Assembly: GCF_007859955.1 (NCBI RefSeq)
Contig: NZ_SJPR01000003.1
Location: 124,001-188,000 of the forward strand
From: Botrimarina colliarenosi
Lineage (GTDB): Bacteria; Planctomycetota; Planctomycetia; Pirellulales; Lacipirellulaceae
Direction of reading: 5' to 3'
Length of the DNA stretch: 64,000 bases
The position numbers and the translations under genes are program-made. Numbering within the stretch: position 1 is the first letter of the stretch; each line of letters begins with the position of its first letter. Of the stretch, positions 44,215 to 62,347 are shown piece after piece. The notes under the pieces are model-generated. The model was not told the DNA's origin. It was given only the letters and a program-made list of their open reading frames with translations, and searched no databases.

Positions 44215-44769
44215 ATGCCGAACTACCGTCGGTGTTTTGTTGAGGGCGGAACCTACTTTTTCACGGTTAAGACTGAGGCCAATCACCCGATCTTTGCGTC
44301 GGACGCTCAAGCGACGTTGTTGGGCGTGGTGATGCGAGAAGCGCGTGAGCGCTGGCCTTTTGAGACGGTTGCGTCGGTCCTCCTTCCCGATCATTTCCAC
44401 GCGATATGGACTCTGCCCGCCGGCGACAGCGACTACTCAAAGCGGTGGGCGTGGATCAAGAAGGAGTTCACCAAGCGGCACCTTAAGGCCGGCGGCGCCG
44501 AGCAACCTGTCAGCCAATCACGCCAAGAGAACCGGCGTCGCGGTATTTGGCAGCGACGTTTCTGGGAGCATCTCGTCGAAGGCGAGACCGAACTCGAAGC
44601 GTACGTCGCCTACATCCACTACAACCCCGTGAAGCACGGGTACGCAGCCGCGCCGGGCGAATGGCGATGGACAACGTTCCATCGCTGGGTCGAGAAAGGG
44701 ACCTACTCGCCCGACTGGGGACGGACCGAAACGCCGCCGTCGATCGCAAAGATCGACGGCGGCGAGTAG
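44215..44769 (+). CDS. REP-associated tyrosine transposase (RAYT, Y1 family)
   Basis: A 184-residue single-copy-type transposase. The HUH-related core shows LLPDHFHAIWTLPAGDSDY, with the metal-binding His-x-His motif, and the catalytic tyrosine region in YIHYNPVKHGYAAAPGEWRW. Other RAYT marks are GTYFFTVKTE, KEFTKRHLKAGG and WQRRFWEHLVEGETELEAYV. No IS-type ends surround it; instead REP-like palindromes lie directly on both sides, as known for RAYTs. The stop TAG is part of a REP head. Confidence 0.93.
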   Translation: MPNYRRCFVEGGTYFFTVKTEANHPIFASDAQATLLGVVMREARERWPFETVASVLLPDHFHAIWTLPAGDSDYSKRWAWIKKEFTKRHLKAGGAEQPVSQSRQENRRRGIWQRRFWEHLVEGETELEAYVAYIHYNPVKHGYAAAPGEWRWTTFHRWVEKGTYSPDWGRTETPPSIAKIDGGE

Positions 44770-47861: not shown

Positions 47862-47876
47862 ATGCGTCAAGCTTCC

Positions 47877-47961
47877 GATCGCCAAAGGCGATTCAAGGTG
47901 AACCGTCGGCGCTAGCCGCCGGCGAATCACCCGTGACGCCACCCGCGGCTGGCGCCTCACC
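47877..47961. repeat. Palindromic repeat, family B copy 2
   Basis: GATCGCCAAAGGCGATTCAA (47877-47896) is followed by an imperfect inverted pair with GTCGGCGCTAGCCGCCGG and CCGCGGCTGGCGCC. The unit is found in opposite orientation at 51081-51171. Confidence 0.75.
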
Positions 47962-48229: not shown

Positions 48230-48805
48230 GTGCTCCCATTCCGCAAACTTGTTCGCCTCGCCGACGTGAAGTCGCAGCTGCGTGACGGCGATCTGCTGCT
48301 GTTCCGCCGCCGTGGCTTGATCTCGGTGGCGGGCCGGGGCGTCCACTCGCACGCGGCGAAGCTCGCGTGGTGGGGCGACACGCCGTTCTGCCTGGAGGTG
48401 CGGGAATGGTTTGGCGGCCGGGCGGTGACGCTCGCCAGCCAAGTCGATCGCTGCCCGGGCCAGATCGATCTGTTCCGGGCTAACCCCGGTGGGCGTTGGC
48501 CCGAGTACGACGCGGCGGCGTCGACCCGTTACCTGCGTCACTTGGCCGGGTGCGACTACGGCTACGCCTCGGTCATCGAGGCGGCGCTGCTGCATCTGCC
48601 GATCGTGCGGATGTGCGTCACCCCCGAGGTGGAAGACAAGGCCGTGAGTCGGCGCCCCCCGTTCTGTAGCCAGGCATGCGCGATGGCGGACCGGCTCGCG
48701 GGAGGCGTCGACCCGGCCCCTTACTTGGCCGATCGGCTGACCGAGCCGGCGGACCTCGCGCGGAGCCCGTTCTATCAGTACCAATTTACCTTCGCGGGGG
48801 AGTGA
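48230..48805 (+). CDS. Papain-fold (YiiX/NlpC-like) cysteine peptidase, first gene of the phage-like cluster
   Basis: A 191-residue protein from GTG 48230, with GGAGG nine bases upstream. The order DVKSQLRDGDLLLFRRRGLI, then HSHAAKLAWWGDTPFCLEVR and later RPPFCSQACAMADRLAGG, fits permuted papain-fold (YiiX/YebB-like) proteins: the histidine comes before the cysteine. Phages often encode such peptidases for wall entry or release. The next gene starts 6 bases later. Assignment to the phage cluster rests on direction and closeness. Confidence 0.7.
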   Translation: MLPFRKLVRLADVKSQLRDGDLLLFRRRGLISVAGRGVHSHAAKLAWWGDTPFCLEVREWFGGRAVTLASQVDRCPGQIDLFRANPGGRWPEYDAAASTRYLRHLAGCDYGYASVIEAALLHLPIVRMCVTPEVEDKAVSRRPPFCSQACAMADRLAGGVDPAPYLADRLTEPADLARSPFYQYQFTFAGE

Positions 48806-48810
48806 AGAGC

Positions 48811-50031
48811 ATGCTCCGCGTCTTGCTTGGCTGCCTCGCCTTGCTGCCGGAATCGGTTGGTGTAGCCCAGTGCGGCCCCGGTGGCTGCTACGTCGGGCCT
48901 TCCCGCTCAGCGCCTTCCGGCCCCCGCACGCACGAATCGATCGCCAGGATTCTTCACCACGAGGCGAGCGGCGACTCGATCGGATCGGGAACGCTCGTCG
49001 CCTCGATTGCGGGCGGCGGCTATGTCCTGACCTGTGCGCATCTGTTCGAGGGGCCCGGCCGCACCGAGGTGCAAGTCGCCGGGCGATCGCTGCCGGCCGA
49101 GCTGGTGGCGATCGACCGCTCGCATGACCTCGCGTTGCTAAAGACGACTGGCGGGGTGGGGCGTCCGGTCGAAGTGGCTGCGATCACCGCCGGCGTTGTT
49201 CTGTCGGCATGTGGGTTCGGCTCCACCGGAGAACTCCGCTGCGTGCGAGGGCCGATCACGGGGTTTGCGACCGCCTCGGGCGCCACTGAGCCGAGCGTCC
49301 GCCTGCGGGGTTCGGTCCGCTCGGGCGACAGCGGCGGTCCGGTCTTCGACACGGCGGGCCGCTTGGTGGCGGTCGTCTGGGGGCAGCGCGACGGCGAGAC
49401 CTTTGCGATGGGCGGCGCGCCGCTGCGGCGGATCCTCGCCCGGTTGCCTCAAGCCAACCAAAGTTTGAAGCCTGTTGAACGCACGCCGCAGGCGGAACCA
49501 CCGCAGCAGCCCGATCGATGGCGTGAGTCGATCGAGCGACGGATCGATCAGATCGCCAATCAGCCCGAACCCGATCTCCCCGCTTTGCCGGACGACCTGC
49601 TACGGCGTGGTGATCTGCAGCAGCTTGCCTCGCGATGGGACCAGCGGTTCGACGAGCTACGGAGCGAAGTGACGGTGAACGTCGCCGCTCCAATCAGCAA
49701 GCGGTTTCGAGGGGTCGGAAGCGTCGAGGCGTTGCTAGCCGCCATCGGCATTGGTGGCCCCCTCGGCTTCGCCGTTTGGACGGGCCTGGCGTGGTGGCGG
49801 CGGCGCTCGACGCGGAACGACACCAAGCCAAGCACGAGGTCGATTGCGGTTGATTCGCCGCCACCGCCGCAGCAGGTGGTCCCCGAGACGCACTTCGTTT
49901 CTTACCAACGCGACGACTACGCCAAAGCCCATCAGTGGGCGAGTGAACAACTCAGCCGCAAGTTTCCCGGTTCGGTCGAACTGCTCACCAGCCTCGACTC
50001 GTTGATCCGCCAGCAGCTGAACGGCAGCTGA
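48811..50031 (+). CDS. Trypsin-like serine peptidase with membrane anchor
   Basis: A 406-residue protein. The N-terminus (MLRVLLGCLALLPESVGVAQ) looks like a signal peptide. The trypsin-like domain has H77 (TCAH), D106 (SHDLALL) and S174 (RSGDSGGPV). A coiled-coil-like region follows at about 240-300 and one membrane segment at about 306-330 (LLAAIGIGGPLGFAVWTGLA), then a basic cytoplasmic tail. A GTG at 48802 overlapping the previous stop (GTGA) is an alternative start. Role in phage maturation or host envelope is open. Confidence 0.8.
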   Translation: MLRVLLGCLALLPESVGVAQCGPGGCYVGPSRSAPSGPRTHESIARILHHEASGDSIGSGTLVASIAGGGYVLTCAHLFEGPGRTEVQVAGRSLPAELVAIDRSHDLALLKTTGGVGRPVEVAAITAGVVLSACGFGSTGELRCVRGPITGFATASGATEPSVRLRGSVRSGDSGGPVFDTAGRLVAVVWGQRDGETFAMGGAPLRRILARLPQANQSLKPVERTPQAEPPQQPDRWRESIERRIDQIANQPEPDLPALPDDLLRRGDLQQLASRWDQRFDELRSEVTVNVAAPISKRFRGVGSVEALLAAIGIGGPLGFAVWTGLAWWRRRSTRNDTKPSTRSIAVDSPPPPQQVVPETHFVSYQRDDYAKAHQWASEQLSRKFPGSVELLTSLDSLIRQQLNGS

Positions 50032-50051
50032 CGCTTGGTCTCTCGACGGGG

Positions 50052-50142
50052 GTGAGCGGTACGGCGCTAGCCGCCGGTGAGTTCTTCAGCCGTCGGTTAC
50101 TCACCGAGCGGGGCGACCGGCGGCTAGCGCCGTACCGCTCAC
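50052..50142. repeat. Palindromic repeat, family B copy 3
   Basis: Perfect 26-base arms (50052-50077 and 50117-50142; GTGAGCGGTACGGCGCTAGC... and its reverse complement). Inside the phage-like cluster, between the trypsin-like gene and the next gene. Confidence 0.85.
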
Positions 50143-50178
50143 AAGAAACGTTTCTCCGATTTCAGTGTGGGTAGCTCG

Positions 50179-50205
50179 TTGCCGCCCGATCTTTTGCGCT
50201 ATCAT
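50179..50205 (+). promoter_or_regulatory. Possible promoter
   Basis: TTGCCG (50179-50184) and TATCAT (50200-50205) are separated by 15 bases, 22 bases before the ATG at 50227. The spacing is a little short, so this is tentative. Confidence 0.35.
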
Positions 50206-50226
50206 CCACCCCCAGGTCTCCCCCCC

Positions 50227-51069
50227 ATGCCCCTCACCAACACCGATGCGGTTCTCTGGTACAACGTCGGCGTCTTCGGCGACGCCGGCTACGCGGTCCC
50301 CAACTGGTCGAACGACGTGGGGAGCCTCAACCCGCAGATCCTTGATTGGGTCGATCTGGTGGGACGCAACCTGTTCCACTTGATGCACCACGAGGATGTC
50401 GATTTGCGGATCCCGCCGTCGATCAACACCTGCAAGCGAGTCCACAAGCTCTACCTGCGCGCGGCGAATATCCTCGCCGGACGGGCTGTGAAGCCCGGCT
50501 CGGACAACATGGAGGCGCTCCACTCTCGGCCGGCGGGGGAAGTGTTCCGCGTCTATCCCGTCCCGTACTTCAAGGCCCGCAACCCGTTTATGCGGCGTTG
50601 GGCCGGGATGGTGCTCGTCTCGCTCGCCGAAGCGATGCAGCACACCGAGAACCGCAAGGAGATGGAGATCTCCACCGCCTTCGCGGGCCAGGTCGGTCAG
50701 TACCTGCGACGCGTCTACGTGAACATGGCGGTTGAGCTCTTTGGCAAGTCGCGGGAAGAGGCCGAGGCCGCCGGGTTCATGCTGAGCGACGCCGACCTCG
50801 CTTCGTACGACCCGTCGAAGTTCTTCACCTCGACCGAGATGGTTGACACCGTGCCGCGACTCGACCGGGTCTTCACGGAGGACCGACTCGAGTTGCTTGC
50901 CGAAGGGATTGCGATCACCGAGCTGCCGGCGGACATCGGCCCTTGGCCGACGAATCTGACGAGCTTCTACGGGGCGACGCGGAGTGACGGCGTCATCAAT
51001 CCGGCGTCGGCGTCGGGAACGTCGCGCTCGACGAGCGGCCCGATCATCCCACCGGCTCCCGGCCCGTGA
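50227..51069 (+). CDS. Unknown protein of the phage-like cluster
   Basis: A 280-residue protein with no recognisable domain. It starts MPLTNTDAVLWYNVGVFGDA and is mostly helical, with FHLMHHEDVDLRIPPSINTC, NPFMRRWAGMVLVSLAEAMQ and ISTAFAGQVGQYLRRVYVNM. The C-terminal 40 residues are Ser/Pro/Gly-rich and disordered-looking. No signal peptide or membrane segment. It lies between two family B repeats, in line with the peptidase and packaging genes. It could be structural; I do not assign a function. Confidence 0.7.
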   Translation: MPLTNTDAVLWYNVGVFGDAGYAVPNWSNDVGSLNPQILDWVDLVGRNLFHLMHHEDVDLRIPPSINTCKRVHKLYLRAANILAGRAVKPGSDNMEALHSRPAGEVFRVYPVPYFKARNPFMRRWAGMVLVSLAEAMQHTENRKEMEISTAFAGQVGQYLRRVYVNMAVELFGKSREEAEAAGFMLSDADLASYDPSKFFTSTEMVDTVPRLDRVFTEDRLELLAEGIAITELPADIGPWPTNLTSFYGATRSDGVINPASASGTSRSTSGPIIPPAPGP

Positions 51070-51080
51070 TGCTGGAGTTG

Positions 51081-51171
51081 GGTGAGCCGTCGGCGCTAGC
51101 CGCGGGTGGCGTCACGGGTGATTCACCCGCGGCTAGCGCCGACGGCTCACCTTGGATCGCCTTTGGCGATC
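51081..51171. repeat. Palindromic repeat, family B copy 4
   Basis: Perfect 28-base arms (51081-51108 and 51124-51151) followed by TTGGATCGCCTTTGGCGATC. This is the reverse-oriented version of the unit at 47877-47961. Confidence 0.85.
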
Positions 51172-51300
51172 GGGCGATAGGTCGTGTTGGCTTTCCCATG
51201 GCGACATCGACGCCGTTTGGCAACGGACAACCTCAACCCTCACCTAACCCCTCCCTGCAAAGGAGGGGGACTGTCTACGAACTACCCCGATTCGTTTGCC

Positions 51301-51543
51301 ATGGTTCGTCACCCCAACGACCCGGATCGAGTCCGCCTTGGCCCCGCCGACTGGGGCGGCCTCTGTTCGCTCGCCCTGGCGATCCTCTCGCTCGGCGCGG
51401 CGACGCTCTACAAGGTCCACGACATCGCCCAGACCAATCGCGAGCGGCTCGCCGCGGTCGACGCCGAGTTGGCGGGGCTGAAGCACAACGTCGGTCTCTT
51501 GCAGACCGACCTCCGCGAGATCTCCAGGAGAGTCCGCCCATGA
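51301..51543 (+). CDS. Small one-pass membrane protein with coiled coil (holin/DUF2730-like)
   Basis: An 80-residue protein from the ATG at 51301. One hydrophobic helix at about residues 19-38 (GGLCSLALAILSLGAATLYK) is followed by a coiled coil (RERLAAVDAELAGLKHNVGL, LQTDLREISRRV). This layout is like small phage proteins of the DUF2730/XhlA type. Its TGA overlaps the ATG of the ParB-like gene (ATGA at 51540), so they are co-translated. A lysis role is inference. Confidence 0.65.
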   Translation: MVRHPNDPDRVRLGPADWGGLCSLALAILSLGAATLYKVHDIAQTNRERLAAVDAELAGLKHNVGLLQTDLREISRRVRP

Positions 51544-52091
51544 AGATCCGAGACCGGGTTAAAGAGCTGCGCCGGGTCCGCGCCGGCGACCTGAAGCCGC
51601 ACCCGAAGAACTGGCGGACGCACTCCCGTCACCAGCAAAGCGTCTTGCGAGGCGTGCTCAAAGAGGTCGGCATGGCCGGCGCGTTACTCGCCCGGGAGCT
51701 TCCCGACGGAACTCTGCAACTCGTCGATGGCCACCTCCGAGCCGAAACAACCCCTTCGGCAGTCGTCCCGGTGCTGGTGCTCGACCTGAGCGACGAGGAA
51801 GCGGAGAAAGTGCTGCTGACGCACGATCCGTTGGCGTCGCTGGCCGGCGTCGATGCGTCACGTCTTGGCGAGCTCCTCGGCCGGGTCGAAACCGAGAGCC
51901 AAGCGGTCGGCGAGATGCTCGCCAAGCTCGCCCGCGAGATCGAAGACGACCCTTCGAAGGCCGATCCGCCGGACGTTGTGATCAAGCCTTGCTACCAGGT
52001 CGTGGTCGAGGTCGAAGGCGAGACGCAGCAACAAGAAATCTACGAGCGGATGCGGGCGGAAGGCCATCGCTGTCGGGTGCTAACGCTGTAG
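51540..52091 (+). CDS. ParB N-terminal domain (ParB/sulfiredoxin-fold) protein
   Basis: A 183-residue protein. The ParB-type core is LKPHPKNWRTHSRHQQSVLR, then LLARELPDGTLQLVDGHLRA and VVPVLVLDLSDEEAEKVLLT; the GH(L)R-type motif of ParB/Srx folds is LVDGHLRAE. It has no HTH domain, so it is of the phage type seen beside terminases rather than a partition protein. The fold binds CTP or ATP in other members. Its TAG stop codon is a REP head. Confidence 0.8.
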   Translation: MKIRDRVKELRRVRAGDLKPHPKNWRTHSRHQQSVLRGVLKEVGMAGALLARELPDGTLQLVDGHLRAETTPSAVVPVLVLDLSDEEAEKVLLTHDPLASLAGVDASRLGELLGRVETESQAVGEMLAKLAREIEDDPSKADPPDVVIKPCYQVVVEVEGETQQQEIYERMRAEGHRCRVLTL

Positions 52092-52178
52092 GGTCCGCTG
52101 TGCGGACCGATTCAAGCGGGCGACTCTCCTCCCCCCCGCGGTTTTTCCTCAAGGAACGGTCCGCACAGCGGACCCTAC
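52088..52178. repeat. REPIN-like pair, family A (52088-52108 and 52158-52178)
   Basis: Two exact 21-base inverted copies separated by 49 bases, filling the entire gap between the ParB-like and ABC-GNAT genes. The left TAG is the ParB-like stop codon; the right copy ends three bases before the next ATG. Shows that host repeats have spread into the phage-like cluster. Confidence 0.88.
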
Positions 52179-52181
52179 GTC

Positions 52182-53279
52182 ATGTCCAACGTGTCGGTCG
52201 AAGTCGAATGCCCGGTTCACGACTCGTTCCGCGTGCAGCAGATCGCCGGCATGTTCGACGTGCCGCTGGGCGATCACGCTAGCGAGACGTTTGCGGTCGA
52301 GCTTCCTGAGCGCGACGAGGAATGGTCGATCGGCCTCATTGTCGGCCCTTCGGGGAGTGGCAAGAGCACGGTTGCCCGCCAGGCGTTCGGCGAGGGTCTC
52401 TATGTGCCCGCCGACTGGCCGGCCGATCGGGCGGTCGTCGACTGTTTCGGTGAGATCCCGGTGCGGAAGGTTGTCGAGCTCTTCACCGCCGTCGGCTTTG
52501 GCTCGCCGCCGTCGTGGGTGAAGCCCTACGCGGTGCTGAGCGGCGGCGAACGCTTCCGCTGCGACCTGGCTCGGGCGCTTGCCGCGAGTTGCGACACGCC
52601 GGGCGCCGTTGTCGCCTTCGACGAGTTCACGAGCGTGGTCGATCGCAACGTGGCTCGCATCTGCTCGGCCGCGATTGCCAAGCAAATCCGCCGAGGGGTG
52701 ATCCCCGCCCGGTTCGTCGCCGTGACGTGTCATTATGACGTCGCCGAATGGCTTGAGCCGGACTGGGTGTTGGACATGGCCACGGGGCAGCTCACCCGGA
52801 GGCGTCTTCGACGACCGAGCATCGAGCTGGAAGTCCATCGCTGCCGCCTGGAGGCTTGGCGATTGTTTGTGCGGCATCACTATCTGAGCGGGTCGCTCGC
52901 TCGGCAGGCGCGGTGCTACTTGGCGACCTGGAACGGCGAACCGGTCAGTTTTGCCGCTACATTGCCGATCATCGCCCAGAAGGGGCGCCGTCGGTTTAGC
53001 CGGATCGTGACGCTGCCGGACTATCAAGGGATCGGTATCGGCATGCGGTTCGTCGAGGCGGTCGCCGCGCTACACCTGGCCGAGGGCTTTCGGATCAACG
53101 TCACGAGCAGTCATCCCGCGCTGATTGGCCACTGTCAGCGTTCGCCCGACTGGAGGACGGTTGCCGTGAAGAAGACAGGGCAATCGGCCACGCGGACGAG
53201 TTCCGCCTTCACGGCGTACCGAAACTCCGCCGGCCGGGCGGTGGTCTCGTTCGAGTATCTCGGATCGGAGACGTCATGA
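52182..53279 (+). CDS. ABC-type ATPase fused to a GNAT domain (possible DNA-modification protein)
   Basis: A 365-residue fusion. The ATPase half has Walker A GPSGSGKST (55-63), signature LSGGERFRCDLARALA (119-134) and Walker B GAVVAFDEFTSVVD (about 140-153). The second half (about 215-350) is GNAT-like: AWRLFVRHHYLSGSLARQAR, PVSFAATLPIIAQKGRRRFS, IVTLPDYQGIGIGMRFVEAV, INVTSSHPALIGHCQRS. The acetyl-CoA loop is seen in DYQGIGIGMR. Mu Mom, a DNA-modifying protein, also has a GNAT fold; the link is inference. Such fusions occur beside phage terminases. Confidence 0.8.
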   Translation: MSNVSVEVECPVHDSFRVQQIAGMFDVPLGDHASETFAVELPERDEEWSIGLIVGPSGSGKSTVARQAFGEGLYVPADWPADRAVVDCFGEIPVRKVVELFTAVGFGSPPSWVKPYAVLSGGERFRCDLARALAASCDTPGAVVAFDEFTSVVDRNVARICSAAIAKQIRRGVIPARFVAVTCHYDVAEWLEPDWVLDMATGQLTRRRLRRPSIELEVHRCRLEAWRLFVRHHYLSGSLARQARCYLATWNGEPVSFAATLPIIAQKGRRRFSRIVTLPDYQGIGIGMRFVEAVAALHLAEGFRINVTSSHPALIGHCQRSPDWRTVAVKKTGQSATRTSSAFTAYRNSAGRAVVSFEYLGSETS

Positions 53280-53333
53280 GCGAGTTGTCGTGACGACGTA
53301 TCGCCCTCACTTGAAATCGGCAACGGCCGGGGA

Positions 53334-53840
53334 ATGACCAACAACGTGATGTCCGCCGAACAGAAACGCGAGGCCGTTCTCATCGTCTCGGTGGGTTGCG
53401 ACCGAGAGACGGCGGCCCGGTATGTCGGATGCCGGCTGGAACAGTTGAACGAGGAACTTGCGAACGACGGGAGTTTTGCGGCCGAGCTACGCCACGCCGA
53501 GGCGGGCAGCGAGTTGACGCACATGCGAAACATCCAGCAAGCGGCGCGGGACGAGCGGCATTGGCGGGCGAGCGTCTGGTGGCTGGAACGCCGACTGCCC
53601 GAGCGGTACGCGCGTCGCGAAGCCGGCTCGGTGACGCGACGCGACCTGCTGCGATTCCTCGGCTCCGTTGCGAGCGGCGTCGCTGCCGCGGTGCGGAACG
53701 AGGAAGACCGCCAACGGGTTCTCGACTCCTTAGGCGAACTAGCCGAGGCGTTGAACGACCCGCTGCACCTAGAGACCACCAGTTCAATGAGCGAGGTGGA
53801 GGACGATGACCGAACGGAGGCGACATGTCCAACGACCTAG
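53334..53840 (+). CDS. Probable terminase small subunit
   Basis: A 168-residue protein. The N-terminal 45 residues look like an HTH (EAVLIVSVGCDRETAARYVG, CRLEQLNEELANDGSFAAEL), followed by helical regions used for oligomer formation (MRNIQQAARDERHWRASVWW, LERRLPERYARREAGSVTRR). The position and 16-base overlap with the large terminase support the call. It would recognise DNA and feed it to the motor. The acidic tail is EVEDDDRTEATC. Confidence 0.75.
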   Translation: MTNNVMSAEQKREAVLIVSVGCDRETAARYVGCRLEQLNEELANDGSFAAELRHAEAGSELTHMRNIQQAARDERHWRASVWWLERRLPERYARREAGSVTRRDLLRFLGSVASGVAAAVRNEEDRQRVLDSLGELAEALNDPLHLETTSSMSEVEDDDRTEATCPTT

Positions 53841-55426
53841 CGGGCGAGCCGCGGGGAACCCCACCCCAATTGTTCCGGGCGCTCCGCGCCGCGTTGGCGT
53901 CGGCATTCACCGAATCACCCCCTGAACGCGAACGGAAAGACGCCGAGAGCTTGCTCTGCTGGGGGCGGCGCTACCTGCCGGCTCACTTCGCCAAACCCCC
54001 CTCGGCGCTTCACCGCTGGCTCGGCGATCAGATCGACGCCATGCGCGACCGTCGTGGTGAGAAGGTCAATGTGATTGGCCCGCGCGGCGCCGCCAAATCG
54101 ACCATCGCCACGCTCGCCGGCGTCCTGCGGGCGGCGGTCGAGGGGACCGAGCCCTACATCTGGATTGTTTCTGACACCAAGGACCAAGCCCATTCACACC
54201 TCGAGAACGTGAAGACCGAGCTGCTAGAGAACCGTGAGCTGGCCGAGGCGTATCCCGGCGCCGTCGGCAAAGGCGCGCGCTGGCAAGCGGGCGGCGTCGA
54301 GCTACGCAACGGCGTGGTCGTCGAGGCGTACGGCGCCGGCCAACGGATCCGCGGCCGCCGCCGTCGCGCGAATCGACCGACGTTCATCGTCTGCGACGAC
54401 TTGCAGAACGAACAGCACATCGCTTCGGCACGCCTCCGTGAGTCGTCGGCCGACTGGTTCCATGGAACGCTGCTGAAGGCGGGGACCAAGCAGACGAACT
54501 TGGTGAACGTCGCCACCGCGCTGCACCGCGACGCCGTGGCGATGCGGCTCAACGAGACCGCCGGATGGACTTCGCGGACCTTCCGAGCGATCGCCCGCTG
54601 GCCCGACGACATGGACCTCTGGCGCGACTGGGAGGCGATCTACTGCGACGCCGACCGGCCCGACCCGCGGACCGAGGCGTTCGCGTTCTACCGAACGAAT
54701 CAAGTCGCCCTGCATGCGGGGGCGGAAGTCTTGTGGCCCGACGAGGAGGACCTCTACACGCTGATGAGGATGCGGGTCGAGAGCGGACATTCGGCCTTCG
54801 AACGTGAGAAGCAAGGCTCTCCTATCGACCCGACGCGGTGCGAGTGGCCCGAGGCCTACTTCGATGTCGACGCGTGGTTCGATGAATGGCCGAAGCGTCT
54901 GACCCTGCGGACCATCGCGCTCGACCCCAGCAAAGGGGCCGACGCGACCGCCGGGGACTACTCGGCGATTGTGCTGTTGGGAGTCGATCCTCGCGGCTTG
55001 ATCTACGTCGAGGCGGATTTGGAACGCCGCCCGACGGCCCAGATGGTTGCCGACGGCGTGCTGCACTGCCGGCGGTTCCGTCCCGACGCCTTCGGTGTCG
55101 AAGCCAACCAATGGCAGCAACTGCTCGCCGGAGAATTCTTGAGCGAGTTCGCCAGGCAGGGCGTCCTCGGCGTCACGCCGTGCGAGATCCACAACCACAC
55201 GAACAAGGCGATGCGGCTGCGGCGGCTCGGCCCGTACCTGTCGCAACGCCGGTTGCGATTCCGGCGTGGCAGCCCGGGGACAACGTTGCTTGTAGACCAG
55301 TTGCGCGACTTCCCCGTCGGGGCCCATGACGACGGTCCCGACGCGCTAGAGATGGCGCTCCGCCTGGCCGAGGAGGTCTGGCGCTCGCGGGGGGTCGAGG
55401 AAACGGCCCTCGGTGAACCTTGGTAG
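53825..55426 (+). CDS. Phage terminase large subunit
   Basis: A 533-residue DNA-packaging motor. Walker A is VNVIGPRGAAKSTIATLAG (about 81-99) and Walker B PTFIVCDDLQ (about 185-194). The C-terminal nuclease has acidic residues in TIALDPSKGADATAGDYSAI and the later DDGPDALEMALRLAEE. The motif set is complete, so the motor could be active. It cleaves and pumps DNA into proheads through the portal, which is encoded just downstream (25-base gap). Confidence 0.93.
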   Translation: MSNDLAGEPRGTPPQLFRALRAALASAFTESPPERERKDAESLLCWGRRYLPAHFAKPPSALHRWLGDQIDAMRDRRGEKVNVIGPRGAAKSTIATLAGVLRAAVEGTEPYIWIVSDTKDQAHSHLENVKTELLENRELAEAYPGAVGKGARWQAGGVELRNGVVVEAYGAGQRIRGRRRRANRPTFIVCDDLQNEQHIASARLRESSADWFHGTLLKAGTKQTNLVNVATALHRDAVAMRLNETAGWTSRTFRAIARWPDDMDLWRDWEAIYCDADRPDPRTEAFAFYRTNQVALHAGAEVLWPDEEDLYTLMRMRVESGHSAFEREKQGSPIDPTRCEWPEAYFDVDAWFDEWPKRLTLRTIALDPSKGADATAGDYSAIVLLGVDPRGLIYVEADLERRPTAQMVADGVLHCRRFRPDAFGVEANQWQQLLAGEFLSEFARQGVLGVTPCEIHNHTNKAMRLRRLGPYLSQRRLRFRRGSPGTTLLVDQLRDFPVGAHDDGPDALEMALRLAEEVWRSRGVEETALGEPW

Positions 55427-55451
55427 TCAACTCACGTTTGGGAGAGAGCAG

Positions 55452-56849
55452 ATGAGCGAATCCACAAGGCGCCCTCTCGAGGGCCGGCTCGAGCGACTAG
55501 AGAAGCGGCTCCTCGAAGCGTTCGAAGGGCTCTGGGGCGACTACGTCGATCCACGCGACGCCTTCAGCGGCGAGGACGGCGATTGGTGGGCGCCGGTCGG
55601 GTTCGCCCGCGGCGCAGGGGCGGGGGGGCCGTTCACGTTGCCCCAGTTGACCGATTTGCGGCAAGAGTGCCGGCAGTTGGCGCTAACGAATGAATTCGCG
55701 ATCAACGGCCACGAGAACCGCATCAGCTACATCGTGGGATCGGGGCACCTCTACCACGCAACGATCCGCAAGGGGATCGAAGCGCCGATCGCCCTGGCCC
55801 AGCAGGTGCAAGAGATCGTCGACGAGTTCCAGGAAGCGAACGACTGGCATGAGCGCCAGCAAGAGATCGTCCGCCGGCTCGACCGCGACGGCGAGGTCTT
55901 CTTGCGCTACTTCGATGACGGACGGGGGGGCGCCCGTGTGCGTTTCGTCGAACCCGAACAGGTGGCGCCGCTGCGTGACCTGCCACTCGACAGCCCCGCC
56001 AGTCACGGCGTGCTCACCGACGCCGACGATGTCGAGACCGTGCTCGGCTACTACGTCGATGGCGAACTGATCGACGCCCGCGAGATCCAGCAACGCAAAG
56101 CGAACGTGGACCGCAACGTCAAACGCGGCTTGCCGCTCTATACGGCGGTGCGATCCAATCTTCGGCGGGCCGAGAAGCTGCTCCGGAACATGAGCGTGGT
56201 TGCCGAGATCCAGTCGGCGATCGCCTTGATTCGAAAGCACCGCAGCGCCACCCGCAGCGGCGTTGAGCAGTTCGTCGCCGACCGCTCGGTGGCGAGCCGG
56301 CTCGACGGGGCGGGGCGGACACGCCGCGTCACCGAATACGGGCCCGGCACGATCCTCGACGCCCCCGCGGGGCTGGAATACGAGTTCCCCGCCACCGGCA
56401 TCGACGCCGGCAGCTATGTCACCATTCTTCAAGCCGAACTCCGGGCCATCGCGGCGCGGTTGGTGATGCCCGAGTTCATGTTTACGTCCGATGCGTCGAA
56501 CGCCAGTTACTCGTCGACGATGATCGCCGAGGGCCCGGCGGTGAAGATGTTCGGGCGGCTGCAAGCGTCGATGATCGAACAAGACCGAAGGGTCTTCGCC
56601 GTCGCGATCGGCAATGCGGTCCGCTACGGACGGCTTCCCGCGGCTGCGCTCGACGCCGTCGATCTGCAGGTGACGGCGCCAACGCTACAGACGCGCGATC
56701 GTGCGAGCGAAGCCCAGGCCGATGAGGTCGCCTATCGCAACGGGGTGCTCTCGACGCAAACGTGGAGTCAACGGCTTGGCCTCGATTACGACCAGGAACA
56801 GAAGAACCGTCGGTTGCACGCTATTGATCGTCAGCCGGAAGACTCTTGA
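55452..56849 (+). CDS. Phage portal protein
   Basis: A 465-residue portal of the lambda-like family from the ATG at 55452, with GGGAGAG upstream. Marks are LRQECRQLALTNEFAINGHE, ENRISYIVGSGHLYHATIRK, DGEVFLRYFDDGRGGARVRF, AEIQSAIALIRKHRSATRSG and AARLVMPEFMFTSDASNASY. Twelve subunits form the DNA entry pore at one capsid vertex. Complete and of usual length. It follows the terminase and precedes the protease, as in siphophages. Confidence 0.9.
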   Translation: MSESTRRPLEGRLERLEKRLLEAFEGLWGDYVDPRDAFSGEDGDWWAPVGFARGAGAGGPFTLPQLTDLRQECRQLALTNEFAINGHENRISYIVGSGHLYHATIRKGIEAPIALAQQVQEIVDEFQEANDWHERQQEIVRRLDRDGEVFLRYFDDGRGGARVRFVEPEQVAPLRDLPLDSPASHGVLTDADDVETVLGYYVDGELIDAREIQQRKANVDRNVKRGLPLYTAVRSNLRRAEKLLRNMSVVAEIQSAIALIRKHRSATRSGVEQFVADRSVASRLDGAGRTRRVTEYGPGTILDAPAGLEYEFPATGIDAGSYVTILQAELRAIAARLVMPEFMFTSDASNASYSSTMIAEGPAVKMFGRLQASMIEQDRRVFAVAIGNAVRYGRLPAAALDAVDLQVTAPTLQTRDRASEAQADEVAYRNGVLSTQTWSQRLGLDYDQEQKNRRLHAIDRQPEDS

Positions 56850-56888
56850 AGGTGGCCAATTCGATTTTAGGGAGAGTGGACAAGCGTA

Positions 56889-56894
56889 TATAAT
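56889..56894 (+). promoter_or_regulatory. Consensus -10 (TATAAT) next to the start of the small gene
   Basis: TATAAT is six bases before the ATG at 56901, which would give a leaderless mRNA. The -35 side is weak (TTTTAG or TTTAGG). It is a distinct AT island in the phage-like cluster. Confidence 0.5.
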
Positions 56895-56900
56895 ACCCCC

Positions 56901-57095
56901 ATGCGAACCAGCACCCCTTCCACCGACCGCGCCGTCACAAAAAGCGGCAAGGCCCATGTCGCCCACGATGCTCTTGTGTCGCTCCTCGGGGAGGCCTGCC
57001 AGCGTGGCTACTACGGGGCGGTCTCGCTCACCCTCCAGGTGCAAGATGGCTACATCCAGCAAGTGAAGATCGCGACCGAGCGGGTCGTGAAGTAG
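56901..57095 (+). CDS. Small DUF2292/YezD-like protein
   Basis: A 64-residue protein with a basic N-terminus and the pattern ALVSLLGEACQRGYYGAVSL, then TLQVQDGYIQQVKIATERVV, similar to YezD/DUF2292 small proteins (helix, then two strands, QVKIA or similar end). Function is unknown. It has its own promoter-like -10 and sits between the portal and protease genes, followed by a terminator. It could be a host-derived or phage regulatory protein. Confidence 0.6.
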   Translation: MRTSTPSTDRAVTKSGKAHVAHDALVSLLGEACQRGYYGAVSLTLQVQDGYIQQVKIATERVVK

Positions 57096-57192
57096 CTCCA
57101 ATCCTTGATCCCCGCCGGGCCGTTTGTGCTCGGTCAATCCTTCCGGCATCGAGCCGAGCCTTCACCCCTAGGGGGAAGGCGTCCTCTCTCGA

Positions 57193-57234
57193 GCCCACGG
57201 CGCGCCTCATTGAGGCACGCCGTGGGCTTTTTCC
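57193..57234 (+). terminator. Strong terminator in front of the prohead protease gene
   Basis: The arms 57193-57210 and 57212-57229 pair in 17 of 18 positions and are followed by TTTTT. It would end the transcript of the small gene at 56901. Confidence 0.85.
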
Positions 57235-57256
57235 ATTCTTAGGAGGCGTCGCTAAC

Positions 57257-58150
57257 GTGACCGAAGTCTCTGCTGAAACGCCGCCCGTCGGAGCCAGTGA
57301 TGCCGACTCTTCCAGTGAAGCGGTGCAAGAGTTTGTCCGGTCGGCGGGGCAAACGCTCCGGGTCGACGCCGTCCGGGGCGTTCTCCGCGGCGTGAAGCTG
57401 CTGGGGCTGCGCTCCCTCAACGGCCGGCGCTACGAGGAGCCCGCCTTGCGGAAGGCGATCGGGCTCTACGAGGGATCGAAAGTCAACGTCAACCACCCGA
57501 CACGCGACCCGCTTGCCCCCCGCGACTACCGCGACCGCCTCGGGGTGGTCCGCAATGTCCGTTTGCAGGCGGGGACCGGCCTGTACGGCGATCTCCACTA
57601 CAACCCGAGCCATCCGCTGGCGGAGCAGTTGGCGTGGGACGCCGAGCACGCGCCGGAGAATGTCGGCCTGTCGCATAACGTGCTCGCTCGGACCCGTCGC
57701 GAAGGGAGCGACGTTGTCATTGAAGCGATCACCCGCGTGCAAAGCGTCGACCTCGTCGCCGACCCGGCAACCACCTCGGGGCTTTTTGAACAGCAGGAAA
57801 CTCCCGAAGCCGAGGCGACGCTCGCAGCCGTGCGGGGCGAGATCGAGGAACTGCAAGAGCAGCTCAAGCAAGCCTGCGAGCAAGCCTTGCGGGAGAGCCG
57901 GTGGCGTCGCGTCGAACAGCACCTGCGGGAGCACAACGTCTCGGCGGCGTCGTCGAAGAGTCTACTGAACGAGGCGTTCGCGCGGCGCCTCTTGGAGGCC
58001 GACGAGGCGGATCTGGACGCCCTCATCCGCGAAGAAGTGCGGACGGCTGAGAGCCGCAAGCCACGGTCGCGCGAGCAGCCGAGCTTCGTGACTCGGGAGC
58101 AAGGTCCCGACACGAAGTCATTCGTTGAGTCGATCACACGACGTCGTTAG
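57257..58150 (+). CDS. Prohead protease with fused scaffold-like C-terminus
   Basis: A 297-residue protein; GTG start with AGGAGG 10 bases upstream. The protease part has LRSLNGRRYEEPALRKAIGL, SKVNVNHPTRDP (histidine), ENVGLSHNVLARTRREGS (serine) and VQSVDLVADPATTSGLFE, typical of T4 gp21/U9-like prohead proteases. The last 120 residues are helical and coiled (EIEELQEQLKQACEQALRES), like a scaffold. It would cleave itself and the capsid proteins during head maturation. Confidence 0.82.
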   Translation: MTEVSAETPPVGASDADSSSEAVQEFVRSAGQTLRVDAVRGVLRGVKLLGLRSLNGRRYEEPALRKAIGLYEGSKVNVNHPTRDPLAPRDYRDRLGVVRNVRLQAGTGLYGDLHYNPSHPLAEQLAWDAEHAPENVGLSHNVLARTRREGSDVVIEAITRVQSVDLVADPATTSGLFEQQETPEAEATLAAVRGEIEELQEQLKQACEQALRESRWRRVEQHLREHNVSAASSKSLLNEAFARRLLEADEADLDALIREEVRTAESRKPRSREQPSFVTREQGPDTKSFVESITRRR

Positions 58151-58214
58151 GCGTCGCTTCGGAGCCGTTGCGTATGAGCGGCGGCGCCTTCCCCTTTCTT
58201 TCTTGGAGCAAGCG

Positions 58215-58688
58215 ATGGCGAACACGATGCGGTGGCGGTACGGCGATACGAATCCGGTGAGGCTGCCGGTGGCGTCGGACGTGGCGGTCGAGATCGGCGA
58301 CCTGGTTTACCTCGACACCGGAGCGGCGAAGCCCGCCTCGGCGCAGGCGGACCAAGGGTCGAGCGTCCTGAACGCGGGCCTCTTTCACGACAACTTCATC
58401 GGCGTGGCGATGCAGGCGTCGCCGGCGGGCGACGCGTCGAGCATCCGGATCGCGACGACCGGCGTCTTCGAGTTCGACTGCGACTCGATGACCAACGAAC
58501 TGGGGAATCCCCTGTCGGTTGCGGTCGATGGGGACGGCGAGCAACTCATCAGCCAGAAAGTGGAGGACGCTGCCACTTTGTCGTTGGCGATCGGGCGTTG
58601 TGCGAAGCCGGTGACCGTCGCCTCGACCCGTGTGTTGGTCGACATCGTCAGTTCGGTCATGCGGGGCGGTCCGCAGGCCGCCGAGTAG
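58215..58688 (+). CDS. Capsid decoration (cement) protein, DUF2190-like
   Basis: A 157-residue beta-rich protein from the ATG at 58215 (GGAG upstream). VASDVAVEIGDLVYLDTGAA, NFIGVAMQASPAGDASSIRI, TTGVFEFDC and TLSLAIGRCAKPV match small proteins encoded just before the major capsid protein that stabilise the shell (lambda gpD or DUF2190-like). The position supports the call; the family name is inference. Confidence 0.72.
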   Translation: MANTMRWRYGDTNPVRLPVASDVAVEIGDLVYLDTGAAKPASAQADQGSSVLNAGLFHDNFIGVAMQASPAGDASSIRIATTGVFEFDCDSMTNELGNPLSVAVDGDGEQLISQKVEDAATLSLAIGRCAKPVTVASTRVLVDIVSSVMRGGPQAAE

Positions 58689-58748
58689 CGCGACCGCTTT
58701 TGCGGCCGTTCCTTTCGATCCCGTTCTTCATTTTCAGGAAATCTACGC

Positions 58749-59912
58749 ATGCGACTACTCAACTACCGCGAGCTGCGGCGCCGCTATGAGCTCGATGGGC
58801 CGTCGAAAACGGTCGAGCACCTCAGCGAGGCGCTTGAGGAGAAGAGCCTCCGGCCCGAGGACTTTAGCATCCGCGACCTCGCCGAGGCGCTGATCCCCGA
58901 CGGACGCGAGTGGGTGCGGACACTCGACCCCCGTAGCGGTGGGGTCTCGCCCGTGCTCGAAGCGAGTGAAGGGATCGACGCCAGCGCCTTCCAGAACATC
59001 GCCGCCCAGGTGGTGCACGCCAAGGTGCTGGAGGCCTACACCCAAGAGGCCTTTGTGGCGTCGCGACTCGTCGAGACGGTGCCGACGCGGCTCGATGGCG
59101 AGAAGATCCCCGGCGTCTCACGGATCGCCGATCAGATCGACGAGGTCGGCGCCGGGATGCCGTTCCCGAGCTTGGGCCTCGACGAGGATTACATCGAAAC
59201 GCCGGCGACCTCCAAGCACGGCTTCATCGTGCCGGTCACGAAGGAGGCGATCTTCTTCGACCGCACGAACCTGATCCTCAGCCGTGCGGCCGAGGTGGGC
59301 GAGGTGCTCGGTCTGAACAAGGAGAAGCGGCTGCTTGATCTGATCGTTGGCGTCACCAACAACTACAAGCACAAGGGCGTGAGCTACGACACCTACCAAG
59401 CGTCGGGCCCTTGGGCGAATGTGGCTGCCGGCAACGAACTGGTTGACTGGACCAACGTCGATGTGGCCGAGCAGCTGTTCGCCGACATCCTCGACCCGGG
59501 GACGGGGGAGCCCGTCTTGCTCGGAGCGACAACCGCCTTGGTGATGCCGGCCTACCGGCACGCCGCCCATCGGACGTTCAACGCTTCGGAAGTGTCGTAC
59601 GCCCCGAGCGGCAGCGCGTCGGCCACGATCGCGGCGAACCCGCTCGGCAACTACCGCGTTGAAGAGAGCCGATTGGCCTACCGCCGCGTGCTCGCTTCGG
59701 GGGTCGCCCCCGCCGACGCGAAGAAGTGGTGGTTCCTCGGCGACTTCCGCAAGGCGTTCGCCTACATGGAGAACTGGCCCATCACGGTGACCCAGGCGCC
59801 ATTGGGGAGCGAGGCCGACTTTACCAACGACATCGTGATGCGGTTCAAGGCCAGCGAACGCGGCGCCGCCGCGGTGATCAATCCTCGGTACGTCGTGAAG
59901 TGTACCGGCTAG
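58749..59912 (+). CDS. Major capsid protein (HK97-fold expected)
   Basis: A 387-residue protein. Signatures are IAAQVVHAKVLEAYTQEAFV, ASRLVETVPTRLDGEKIPGV, VPVTKEAIFFDRTNLILSRA (E-loop/P-domain region) and KWWFLGDFRKAFAYMENWPI, with the ending NPRYVVKCTG. The first 70 residues are helical and may be removed by the protease. It lies after the decoration gene and before a terminator, as the highest-expressed gene in most heads would. Confidence 0.87.
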   Translation: MRLLNYRELRRRYELDGPSKTVEHLSEALEEKSLRPEDFSIRDLAEALIPDGREWVRTLDPRSGGVSPVLEASEGIDASAFQNIAAQVVHAKVLEAYTQEAFVASRLVETVPTRLDGEKIPGVSRIADQIDEVGAGMPFPSLGLDEDYIETPATSKHGFIVPVTKEAIFFDRTNLILSRAAEVGEVLGLNKEKRLLDLIVGVTNNYKHKGVSYDTYQASGPWANVAAGNELVDWTNVDVAEQLFADILDPGTGEPVLLGATTALVMPAYRHAAHRTFNASEVSYAPSGSASATIAANPLGNYRVEESRLAYRRVLASGVAPADAKKWWFLGDFRKAFAYMENWPITVTQAPLGSEADFTNDIVMRFKASERGAAAVINPRYVVKCTG

Positions 59913-59928
59913 AGGCGGCCTGTCCGTG

Positions 59929-59963
59929 AACCGGGGGGAGTGGCGTTCTCCCCCCGGTTTTCT
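59929..59963 (+). terminator. Terminator after the major capsid gene
   Basis: Perfect 12-base arms (59929-59940 and 59948-59959) surround a 7-base loop and are followed by TTTCTCCC. Confidence 0.88.
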
Positions 59964-59987
59964 CCCACCCGATGGAGTCGCTTCGCC

Positions 59988-61094
59988 ATGGCGAGTTATC
60001 AGCAAGTCCTCGACGACGCAGTGGCGTATTGGCGACTGAGCGAGGCGGCAGGAACGGTGGCGGCGGATGATGCGGGCGCTCACTCGGCGACGTTGCAAGG
60101 AGGCCTCGTCTTTGGGGCCGACTCGACGATTGGACCGCGCGGCTGGATGCCGAACGCCTTGCAACTCGACGGCGTCGCCGACTGTCTGACGATCCCGTCG
60201 CAAGTGACGCTCGGTCTGGGGGTCGATCACACCTACTCCTTGTGGTGGAAGGCGAGCTCGCCCGCCCCGTGGTCACCGCAGGTGCTGATCGAGACCGGTG
60301 GCACAACCCATTGCTCCTTAGTCCATCTCGCCGGAAGCGAAGTCTATTTTGTCGCCGCTCGCAACTCGGTGGTGAGCTACGCCAGCGCTCCGGCGCCGAC
60401 CGAGGGGGCGTGGCGTCATCTGGCGGCGGTGCATCGCGACGCGAGCTTGGAAATCTTTCTGGACGGCGTCCTTGTTGGCGCAGCGATCCCGTCCGATGCG
60501 TGGGTGGTTTCGGGCGCCAACAATGGCGCCATCGGAGCCGTTGACGACGGCCAATGGGTGGGCGGCTCGATCGCCAATGCGAGGACCTGTTACTTTGCCG
60601 GCGCTATTGCCGGCGTCGCCATCATTGATCGAGCGCTGACCGGCGACGAAGTCGCCGAGCTGTATGCCGGGCCTGAGCCGGTTGCGACGGGGGTCCCCGA
60701 GCTGAGTGGGAGCTTCCGGATTGGCGAAGCGCACAGCGTCTCGGCGTCGGCGTGGGACGCCCAGAACAACGGGGAGCTCGCGGTCTCAACGGTTCTGCAG
60801 CTCAGCCCCGACGGATCGACCGGTTGGCAAGACGTCCCGGCGACGCTCGGGCTGCCCCACTTCTCGATGCCGATGGCAGCCAGCGGACATTGGGCGAGGG
60901 TCGCGGCGGTGGCGACTAATGACGGCGGTGCGAGCGATCCTGCTTTTGGCGCCGCGATGGAAGTTCTGCCAGCGAGAACGCCCGCCCACGCCCTTACCCA
61001 AGCCACGGCTTCCGCGGGCGCCTTGACGGGTCTCGCCTGCCCGAGCGGAGGGAGCCAAGCCAACATGATCCTACCGGGAGGCAACGCAAGCTGA
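59988..61094 (+). CDS. LamG-domain (concanavalin-like) structural or adhesion protein
   Basis: A 368-residue protein from the ATG at 59988. The LamG/jelly-roll domain covers residues about 1-220: VAYWRLSEAAGTVAADDAG, NALQLDGVADCLTIPSQVTL, YSLWWKASSPAP, HLAAVHRDASLEIFLDGVLV and YFAGAIAGVAIIDRALTGDE are the classic strand motifs. The C-terminal half has Ig-like strands. It has no signal peptide, so it is more likely a particle protein (fibre or host-binding) than secreted. TGATG overlap with the next gene. Confidence 0.8.
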   Translation: MASYQQVLDDAVAYWRLSEAAGTVAADDAGAHSATLQGGLVFGADSTIGPRGWMPNALQLDGVADCLTIPSQVTLGLGVDHTYSLWWKASSPAPWSPQVLIETGGTTHCSLVHLAGSEVYFVAARNSVVSYASAPAPTEGAWRHLAAVHRDASLEIFLDGVLVGAAIPSDAWVVSGANNGAIGAVDDGQWVGGSIANARTCYFAGAIAGVAIIDRALTGDEVAELYAGPEPVATGVPELSGSFRIGEAHSVSASAWDAQNNGELAVSTVLQLSPDGSTGWQDVPATLGLPHFSMPMAASGHWARVAAVATNDGGASDPAFGAAMEVLPARTPAHALTQATASAGALTGLACPSGGSQANMILPGGNAS

Positions 61095-61492
61095 TGAATC
61101 TGTCTACCGAAGCGTACGGCGCTGTTTTCGCGGGAGGGAGTGTGGTTCTCTTCGCGAGAGTCGCCTACTCTGACGAGAGCTTGGTGGCGCCCGGCGACCT
61201 TTCGACAGCGGTGTACTCGGTCGAAGAGATCGACCCCTGTGGCGTCGTCGATCCGGTCCCCGTGACGGGCCACACCAACGTGGCCGTGTCGCCCGCCTCG
61301 CTGCTGTCGGTTGGGCTCGAGACCGGTTCGCCGTGGGATGTCGACGAGGAAGGATTCAACTTCCGGCACGAGATCGACATCACGGCGGCGCCCGCATTCG
61401 CGACGGCGGGCAAGTCTTACCGCATCCGCTTTGTGCTGACGCCCACCGCGGGGCAGCCCATCGTAGTCCGATTCCTGATCGAGGCGCTCTAG
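61094..61492 (+). CDS. Unknown beta-rich protein of the phage-like cluster
   Basis: A 132-residue protein. It starts inside the stop of the LamG gene (TGATG at 61092-61096). Strands such as AVYSVEEIDPCG, PVPVTGHTNVAVSPA and YRIRFVLTPTAGQPIVVRFL suggest an Ig-like or baseplate-type domain. No family recognised. Transcription is shared with the LamG gene. Confidence 0.7.
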   Translation: MNLSTEAYGAVFAGGSVVLFARVAYSDESLVAPGDLSTAVYSVEEIDPCGVVDPVPVTGHTNVAVSPASLLSVGLETGSPWDVDEEGFNFRHEIDITAAPAFATAGKSYRIRFVLTPTAGQPIVVRFLIEAL

Positions 61493-61493
61493 C

Positions 61494-61709
61494 ATGACCC
61501 AGGACGTAACCCAGCTTCAAGCCATCCGATTGCAGACGCTCGCTCAGATCCAAGAGGTGAGAAGCACGCTGAAACCGACCTACTGGATCGACGGGCAGCG
61601 GGTCCATTGGGAGCAGTACGTCGAGTCGTTGCAACGGACCGTCGACTGGTGTGACCGGAAGTTGATCGAGGTCCGTCCCTACGAAGTCATCTCCGAAGGA
61701 GGCTCGTGA
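61494..61709 (+). CDS. Small helical protein of the phage-like cluster
   Basis: A 71-residue protein with helices LQAIRLQTLAQIQEVRSTLK and YVESLQRTVDWCDRKLIEVR. It follows the previous gene by one base. Small helical proteins of this size often sit near head-tail genes in phages, but the family is not known. The AGGAGG at 61697-61702 in its 3' end serves the next gene. Confidence 0.65.
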   Translation: MTQDVTQLQAIRLQTLAQIQEVRSTLKPTYWIDGQRVHWEQYVESLQRTVDWCDRKLIEVRPYEVISEGGS

Positions 61710-62347
61710 TGTCACTCGGATGGAACGCCAGCGGGGACTTCGGAGTGGTCGTCGATACGCTGGAAACAGTTGTCTTGCGGCGTGGCGGCGCTGGAGGCGC
61801 CAAAGAATCGAAGCAAGCTTGGCGATTCCAATGCCAAGCCCTTAGTGAAACACCGCTCACCGGCGCCGTGCGAGTGCTCGACGCCACCTGGCAGCTGCCG
61901 GTGGAGGGGGGCGTCGTGGCGCCGTCGCCGGGGGATTCGCTTGTCGACTCGGAGAAGGCTTGTTGGGTCGTTCGGACAGTGAGCAAGCTTCGGGGCGGCA
62001 CCCGCTACGCCTGTGGGACCCGACGCGTCGAGATCGCCGCCGGTTGCGCTGAGCGATTCGACTTGGAACGCCCCGTCATCGAGACCACGTCTGAAGGGCC
62101 GGTCATTGTCGATTGGCGAGTCGTCCGAGCGAGCTGTATCGGCCACTTCGGACGGGGCGACACGCTCGATTCTCAAGAGGTCGTCCGATCGCCGAGCCGC
62201 TTGACCGTCACGGTCGTCGAGCCGCTCGAGTTGCGCAGCGGAGACCGTCTCCGCCGTCACCGCGGCGGCCTCTACTCGGTGTTGCAGCAAGACTACCCCG
62301 GAACGCTCGGCGATCCTTTTCAGTTCGATGTCGAGGCGGTCGCTTGA
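61709..62347 (+). CDS. Unknown last protein of the phage-like cluster
   Basis: A 212-residue beta-rich protein. The ATG at 61709 has AGGAGG six bases upstream and overlaps the previous stop (TGATG). Strands are WNASGDFGVVVDTLETVVLR, KQAWRFQCQALSETPLTGAV, RVLDATWQLPVEGGVVAPSP and RLTVTVVEPLELRSGDRLRR. No family recognised. Its 3' end overlaps the convergent rlmN by 28 bases, which marks the boundary of the cluster. Confidence 0.68.
   Translation: MSLGWNASGDFGVVVDTLETVVLRRGGAGGAKESKQAWRFQCQALSETPLTGAVRVLDATWQLPVEGGVVAPSPGDSLVDSEKACWVVRTVSKLRGGTRYACGTRRVEIAAGCAERFDLERPVIETTSEGPVIVDWRVVRASCIGHFGRGDTLDSQEVVRSPSRLTVTVVEPLELRSGDRLRRHRGGLYSVLQQDYPGTLGDPFQFDVEAVA

Follow-up and report, generated by a model that had tools for sequence, protein, structure and literature searches.

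A compact one-strand run of 17 genes for head building and DNA packaging occupies 48.2-62.35 kb on the + strand of the 64,000-nucleotide stretch of Botrimarina colliarenosi DNA analysed here (the window). We read this cluster, with a probability of about 0.72, as a domesticated phage head and DNA-packaging machine that is vertically inherited and fixed in the family to which the window belongs (GTDB code f1), its tail having been lost and its head, portal and terminase, with part of the connector, staying under strong selection. The predicted particle is best read as domesticated, gene transfer agent (GTA)-like and secondarily tailless. A first-pass annotation of this DNA had offered three interpretations: a GTA-like particle, which the cluster may encode, a domesticated head system, which family-wide presence, a single site, vertical descent, purifying selection and the lack of visible mobility genes strongly support, and a degenerate prophage, which f1-wide retention and strong purifying selection contradict. 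A search of the open literature on GTAs, prophages and capsids of planctomycetes or Pirellulales found no earlier description of the cluster. Gene identities come from open-reading-frame (ORF) listing and profile (HMM) searches of PHROG, Pfam and NCBIfam, with motifs read by eye where stated; all genes lie on the + strand, in window coordinates:

48251..48805, +, papain-like protein (NlpC/P60-type by eye), opens the conserved cluster; conserved FCSQ motif
48811..50031, +, trypsin-like serine protease with a C-terminal transmembrane (TM)-like stretch; Trypsin_2 E=1.5e-16
50227..51069, +, unkA, helical protein of no assigned family; found in about half of f1 loci
51184..51543, +, small protein with one TM-like stretch and a coiled coil (holin-like by eye); profile-found in 7/27 f1 loci
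51543..52091, +, ParB-like protein; phrog_620 E=1.2e-10
52182..53279, +, ABC-ATPase/GNAT fusion, predicted DNA-base acylation enzyme; phrog_11143 E=2e-105
53334..53840, +, terminase small subunit TerS; phrog_4102 E=2e-11
53825..55426, +, terminase large subunit TerL; phrog_38 E=8e-74
55455..56849, +, portal; phrog_21 E=1.5e-37, Phage_portal_2 E=1e-17
56901..57095, +, 64-amino-acid gene between portal and protease, absent from the first-pass annotation; profile matches in G044 and the majority of f1 loci
57257..58150, +, prohead (head maturation) protease; weak phrog_207 E=0.03, position, conserved His/Ser columns in 34 loci
58212..58688, +, head decoration (cement) protein; Phage_cement_2 E=9e-6, phrog_122
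58749..59912, +, major capsid protein; Phage_capsid_4 E=3e-16
59985..61094, +, LamG-domain protein, likely a particle-surface adhesin or head fibre; Laminin_G_3 E=9e-17
61094..61492, +, small beta-rich protein (Ig/BppU-N-like by eye); no profile match, conserved in many f1 and other-family loci
61494..61709, +, 71-amino-acid connector protein (gpW-like by eye); no phage-family profile match, conserved in nearly all loci
61706..62347, +, predicted head-closure (stopper) protein with two beta domains; AlphaFold pLDDT 82 and Foldseek

Distribution, inheritance and constraint

Among 98 genomes of the window's order, TerL was matched in 81 (45 of 55 genera) and the capsid in 78 (44 of 55 genera), usually as one close copy per genome. 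Both were present in 28 of the 29 f1 genomes that are at least 90% complete, nearly always in single copy; the sole exception was G036, where neither was found. Gene order was identical in the nine regions first read (complete or near-complete genomes, G048 excluded), and the gene set recurred in later regions. Comparing gene order and dN/dS among relatives, as the first-pass annotation had suggested, thus revealed an order common across regions together with purifying selection.

Maximum likelihood trees of TerL and rpoB, built for 26 genomes and assessed by a Mantel test and shuffled-label controls, had 14 of 23 splits in common (shuffled labels, mean 0.19 and maximum 3), and the distances of the two genes correlated with r 0.82 (permutation maximum 0.57), or 0.71 within f1 alone (maximum 0.30). 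The cluster lay 115-290 kb from rpoB in 9 genomes, and its upstream neighbours (endo/exonuclease, HEAT and CoA-binding genes) were the same in several f1 genera and in G044 of family f2. Replacement of TerL in G053, G069 and G046 indicates some recombination. These swaps, together with related head-tail elements in families f15, f21 and f23 and the 123 IMG/VR stretches that encode capsid relatives, could also be expected of an active prophage or a horizontally spreading satellite; we consider this highly unlikely, as the cluster is found in single copy at one site, its trees agree with those of the host, and neither mobility or replication genes nor repeats resembling attachment (att) sites were seen.

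Selection was evaluated with pairwise codon models within the genus, which rejected neutrality for each gene, with likelihood ratios of 63-486 (G000-G001 pair; rlmN, whose fit overflowed, was left out). Omega was well below 1 for the cluster genes; synonymous divergence (dS) is saturated, so these values are imprecise and nonsynonymous divergence (dN) was compared instead. The capsid evolved most slowly (dN 0.05), followed by unkA (0.07 to G001), portal (0.09) and TerL (0.12), against 0.22 for rlmN, 0.22 for epmB, 0.20 for the HEAT gene and 0.15 for the endo/exonuclease among the host neighbours. The host gene rlmN, next to the cluster, is therefore less well conserved than capsid, portal and TerL. 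LamG (0.44) and the stopper (0.46) evolved fast, as expected of surface or docking parts; stopper distances between tailed and tailless families saturate.

Two further explanations have to be judged by these rates. Chance retention of a degenerate prophage could draw on the missing tail and integrase, the loss of the stopper in some genera and the interrupted capsid of G029, yet it is scarcely credible for a cluster whose capsid and TerL occur in nearly all f1 genomes of good completeness, whose omega is well below 1 and whose capsid changes more slowly than rlmN. We give equally little weight to a protein nanocompartment, in which the shell would hold a cargo in the manner of an encapsulin, with the packaging genes left as a relic. 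The capsid being the slowest-evolving cluster gene would suit such a container; however, TerL retains its motor and nuclease residues, the cluster shows no evident gene for a cargo enzyme, and it departs from encapsulins in conserving a strongly constrained portal and TerL.

Tail genes in f1 and in other families

Downstream of the stopper gene, f2, f11, f12, f17, f19 and further families of the order carry all or part of a set made up of a tail-completion gene (in G077, Tail_completion_gp17 E=4e-12), T1 (170 amino acids), the tube-like T2 (weak phrog_1407 and Phage_tube_2 matches), T3 (280 amino acids) and fibre-like genes. No tape-measure gene was seen in the tail-bearing loci of this order, and the tail of those families may therefore be short. 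The head-tail elements of Planctomycetia in f15, f21 and f23 (G057, G391, G175, G406) resemble the f1 cluster in their homologous capsid and protease and mostly in portal and TerL, all in the same order, but differ in the tube-, tape-measure- or tail-completion-like genes directly downstream of the head genes and in capsid sequence (~30-40% identity). A Zavarzinella formosa prophage, cited in PMC7947584, stands beside these elements.

The search for tail genes relied on Phage_tube_2 and on tail families from the order itself, which leaves room for an unrelated tail elsewhere in a genome. Genome-wide profiles placed T1 or T3 in ~30 genomes of other families; a sample of 44 f1 genomes yielded no credible match at the locus or elsewhere, those in G005, G022 and G029 being short, weak and away from the cluster. 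The tube profile, checked in 20 genomes, followed the same pattern, with no tube match in the f1 genomes searched, whereas a PF06841 tube search was silent in its own controls and gives no information. T1 and T3 profiles were likewise without match in f13, f18 and part of f20, which does not amount to a call of taillessness. In the f1 regions read, host genes begin tens to a few hundred bases after the last cluster gene, leaving no room for a tail. Along the same line, IMG/VR loci with a capsid identity of at least 74% lack T1-T3, except L200, while more distant loci often carry them.

Since other families of the order keep the same cluster with a tail module that is absent from f1, the gene content points to an ancestral head-tail element whose tail was lost secondarily in f1. 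The first-pass statement that there is no tail thus holds for f1 and needs correcting in one respect, as the tailless condition appears to be derived; its proposal to look for tail genes elsewhere in the genome is answered by the genome-wide profiles for the tail families covered. Most f21 genomes (for example G115, L065/L066, and G175, L071/L072) have one capsid cluster per genome, with only protease, decoration and capsid found in G115 and a head-tail set in G175; these clusters are possibly a parallel domestication.

The main mechanistic rival, which we regard as unlikely, is that DNA-filled heads take their tails from infecting or co-resident phages, in the manner of the capsid-forming phage-inducible chromosomal islands (cf-PICIs), and that such a head is now fixed in the host, perhaps as a device for phage interference or transfer. 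A cf-PICI is a mobile island of the chromosome that has a helper phage and encodes its own head and packaging genes but no tail (PMC10690885); its set of head genes (TerS, TerL, portal, protease, capsid, connectors) is the one found here. Most f1 genomes also keep the stopper-like protein, a platform for tail docking, and this protein evolves fast. In contrast to cf-PICIs, however, the f1 cluster descends vertically at one fixed site, no integrase or primase was seen in ORF listings, and no helper is known; the stopper has been lost repeatedly in f1 genera whose head genes remain, which speaks against a need for tail docking.

Several observations weigh against a domesticated, vertically inherited packaging head. 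Particle, packaged DNA and transfer are all predicted from the genes, and the imprecision of omega bears on the reading as well. TerS retains an N-terminal helix-turn-helix-like region (by eye), so that packaging may be sequence-specific. Several f1 genera (those of G005, G010, G014, G018, G025, G026 and G035) have lost the stopper gene or keep a reduced one, and in G029 (contig 1, 6420000-6433900; L174:234-13750) a ~12.3-kb insert splits the capsid gene; with the lack of the cluster in G036, these cases indicate that it is not strictly essential. Finally, IMG/VR catalogues such regions as viral. The first-pass annotation had named tail and integrase genes with att sites just outside the cluster, or frameshifted capsid genes across strains, as findings that would speak against domestication; in the checks run, none of the former was seen, and the capsid of G029 was the one split gene. 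The insert in G029 seems to be a mobile element that uses the domesticated capsid gene as an insertion site; it carries a terminase-like ORF (by eye) and genes for a pair of serine recombinases (Resolvase E=2e-28 and 3e-37).

Gene content and surroundings

The ~14-kb co-directional capsid and packaging cluster described in the first-pass annotation was recovered, with open frames at the positions given there and profiles for most genes. Its claim of intact TerL motor motifs was confirmed by Walker A, Walker B and nuclease acidic residues conserved in 26 genomes. Among the peptidase and holin labels, trypsin-like stood, with His, Asp and GDSGGP columns mostly conserved, whereas papain-fold and holin-like found no profile match (for the papain-like protein, none in Pfam or NCBIfam above cut-off) and depend on reading by eye. 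The papain-like gene is nevertheless kept in nearly all f1 loci reaching that far, and the small TM/coiled-coil protein has counterparts that are 72-77% identical in two other members of the genus and 51% identical in G008. The prohead protease label had a weak profile match, with which position and conserved columns agree. Against INPHARED phages, the capsid gave no match and the portal matches at 23% only. Pfam PF03237 missed the window's TerL in its own genome, and its negative result was discarded.

The model of the last gene product was compared with known connectors by Foldseek and matched phage Douge (E=7e-4) and, more weakly, PBSX XkdH, SPP1 and RcGTA (probability 0.99-1.0; RcGTA chain 6tba_3A, E=0.16, probability 0.99), as well as many predicted phage head-tail adaptors in a viral structure library. 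This stopper-like fold, which the first-pass annotation did not list, suggests a head-closure protein. For unkA, one of the most conserved cluster genes, PHROG, Pfam and NCBIfam profiles gave no family match, and the AlphaFold model (pLDDT 42) was not used. Where unkA is missing, its slot is filled by a different conserved gene of ~230 amino acids in G018 (L050:2892-3596) and G021 (L058:1355-2044).

Rearrangements and extra copies were observed in a few genomes. G026 has an inversion inside the cluster; G048 (contig 1, 4414000-4450000; L053, L054) has a permuted order, with the protease-to-stopper part upstream of the papain/trypsin/ParB/TerL part and no portal gene found. A second, distant TerL (~46% in the C-terminal half) with no head genes nearby occurs in G035 (C1:4330549), G026 (C3:412864) and G074 (C76:6001), adjoining a ParB-like gene of ~430 amino acids in the first two.

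The GC content of the cluster is level with its flanks, and the region holds no Rfam family and no tRNA. No integrase, primase, regulator or att site was seen in 35-kb regions whose ORF listings were read by eye, and no flanking direct repeat resembled an att site; the repeats around the cluster, considered as att sites, were rejected because they are hairpin repeats in gene gaps. These palindromic hairpins lie at 47875-47956, 50052-50142, 51081-51173 and 52088-52178, with a GGCGCTAGCCG core at 3 of the 4 sites, and a Y1/REP-type transposase lies 3.7 kb upstream at 44215-44769, outside the cluster as first delimited; together they are likely a REP/RAYT-like repeat system. Downstream, the neighbour in most genera examined is an XRE-type regulator gene. 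In the window's genus the 3' end is rearranged to rlmN, and the regulator homologue lies ~93 kb away in the window's genome, so that the first-pass claim of no repressor is right for this genus and fails elsewhere.

Predicted particle and known systems

Judged by phage biology, TerS and TerL would drive DNA through the portal into the capsid. The prohead protease would mature this shell and the cement protein stabilise it; the gpW-like and stopper proteins would seal it, and LamG proteins would decorate it on the outside. The ParB and ABC-GNAT pair, also found side by side in phages (Gordonia phages), probably modifies DNA; for a GNAT paired with an ABC ATPase, acylation of a DNA base has been predicted (PMC7824862). 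The protease and papain-like genes may help release. The likeliest cargo would be host DNA, in a GTA-like manner, because the cluster has no visible genes for integration, replication, self-transfer or phage rebuilding. Delivery could proceed by cell release and natural uptake (competence), by vesicle-enclosed heads or by a tail supplied in trans from phages.

Most known domesticated phage particles are tailed GTAs, those of Alphaproteobacteria being known best. Like the RcGTA-type GTAs of Alphaproteobacteria (PMC7947584, PMC9836097, PMC11841831), the f1 cluster is a set of phage structural genes passed on vertically and as conserved as core genes, and its stopper fold is matched by an RcGTA chain. 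It differs in lacking tail genes, in its Phage_capsid_4 capsid, in its phylum and in the predicted DNA-modification pair inside it. Intact phage-derived head and packaging genes and stable vertical inheritance are those of a GTA; the cluster cannot be filed as one, because the tail is missing and any packaging of random DNA would be a prediction. A GTA packs host DNA without favouring its own genes, holds less than the length of its cluster and transfers DNA to recipient cells, all of which the predicted particle may do. The integrase, replication genes, tail genes and variable sites of a functional temperate prophage are missing as well, and of a cf-PICI only the tailless set of head and packaging genes (terminase, portal, protease, capsid, connectors) is present, without a mobile element bearing integrase, regulators, primase and att sites. 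PBSX and other phage-tail-derived killing particles are likewise domesticated defective prophages, and PBSX XkdH resembles the stopper fold. Such particles depend on the tail, whereas the f1 cluster keeps only the head.

Tentatively, and at somewhat less than even odds, f1 may maintain a tailless, DNA-packing capsid as a housekeeping-like trait, serving gene transfer, DNA storage or phage interference, while the order as a whole would retain the ancestral form with its tail, a GTA-like lineage of Planctomycetia separate from the GTAs known so far. Together, these findings reveal an old, order-wide, host-owned capsid system in a phylum with little phage biology, and they caution that virus catalogues list such host-owned regions as viruses. 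In one family the tail is gone, yet the packaging motor has stayed more tightly constrained than the rRNA methylase gene next to it, and matched families with and without tail genes provide a setting in which to ask whether packaged DNA is useful without tail delivery.

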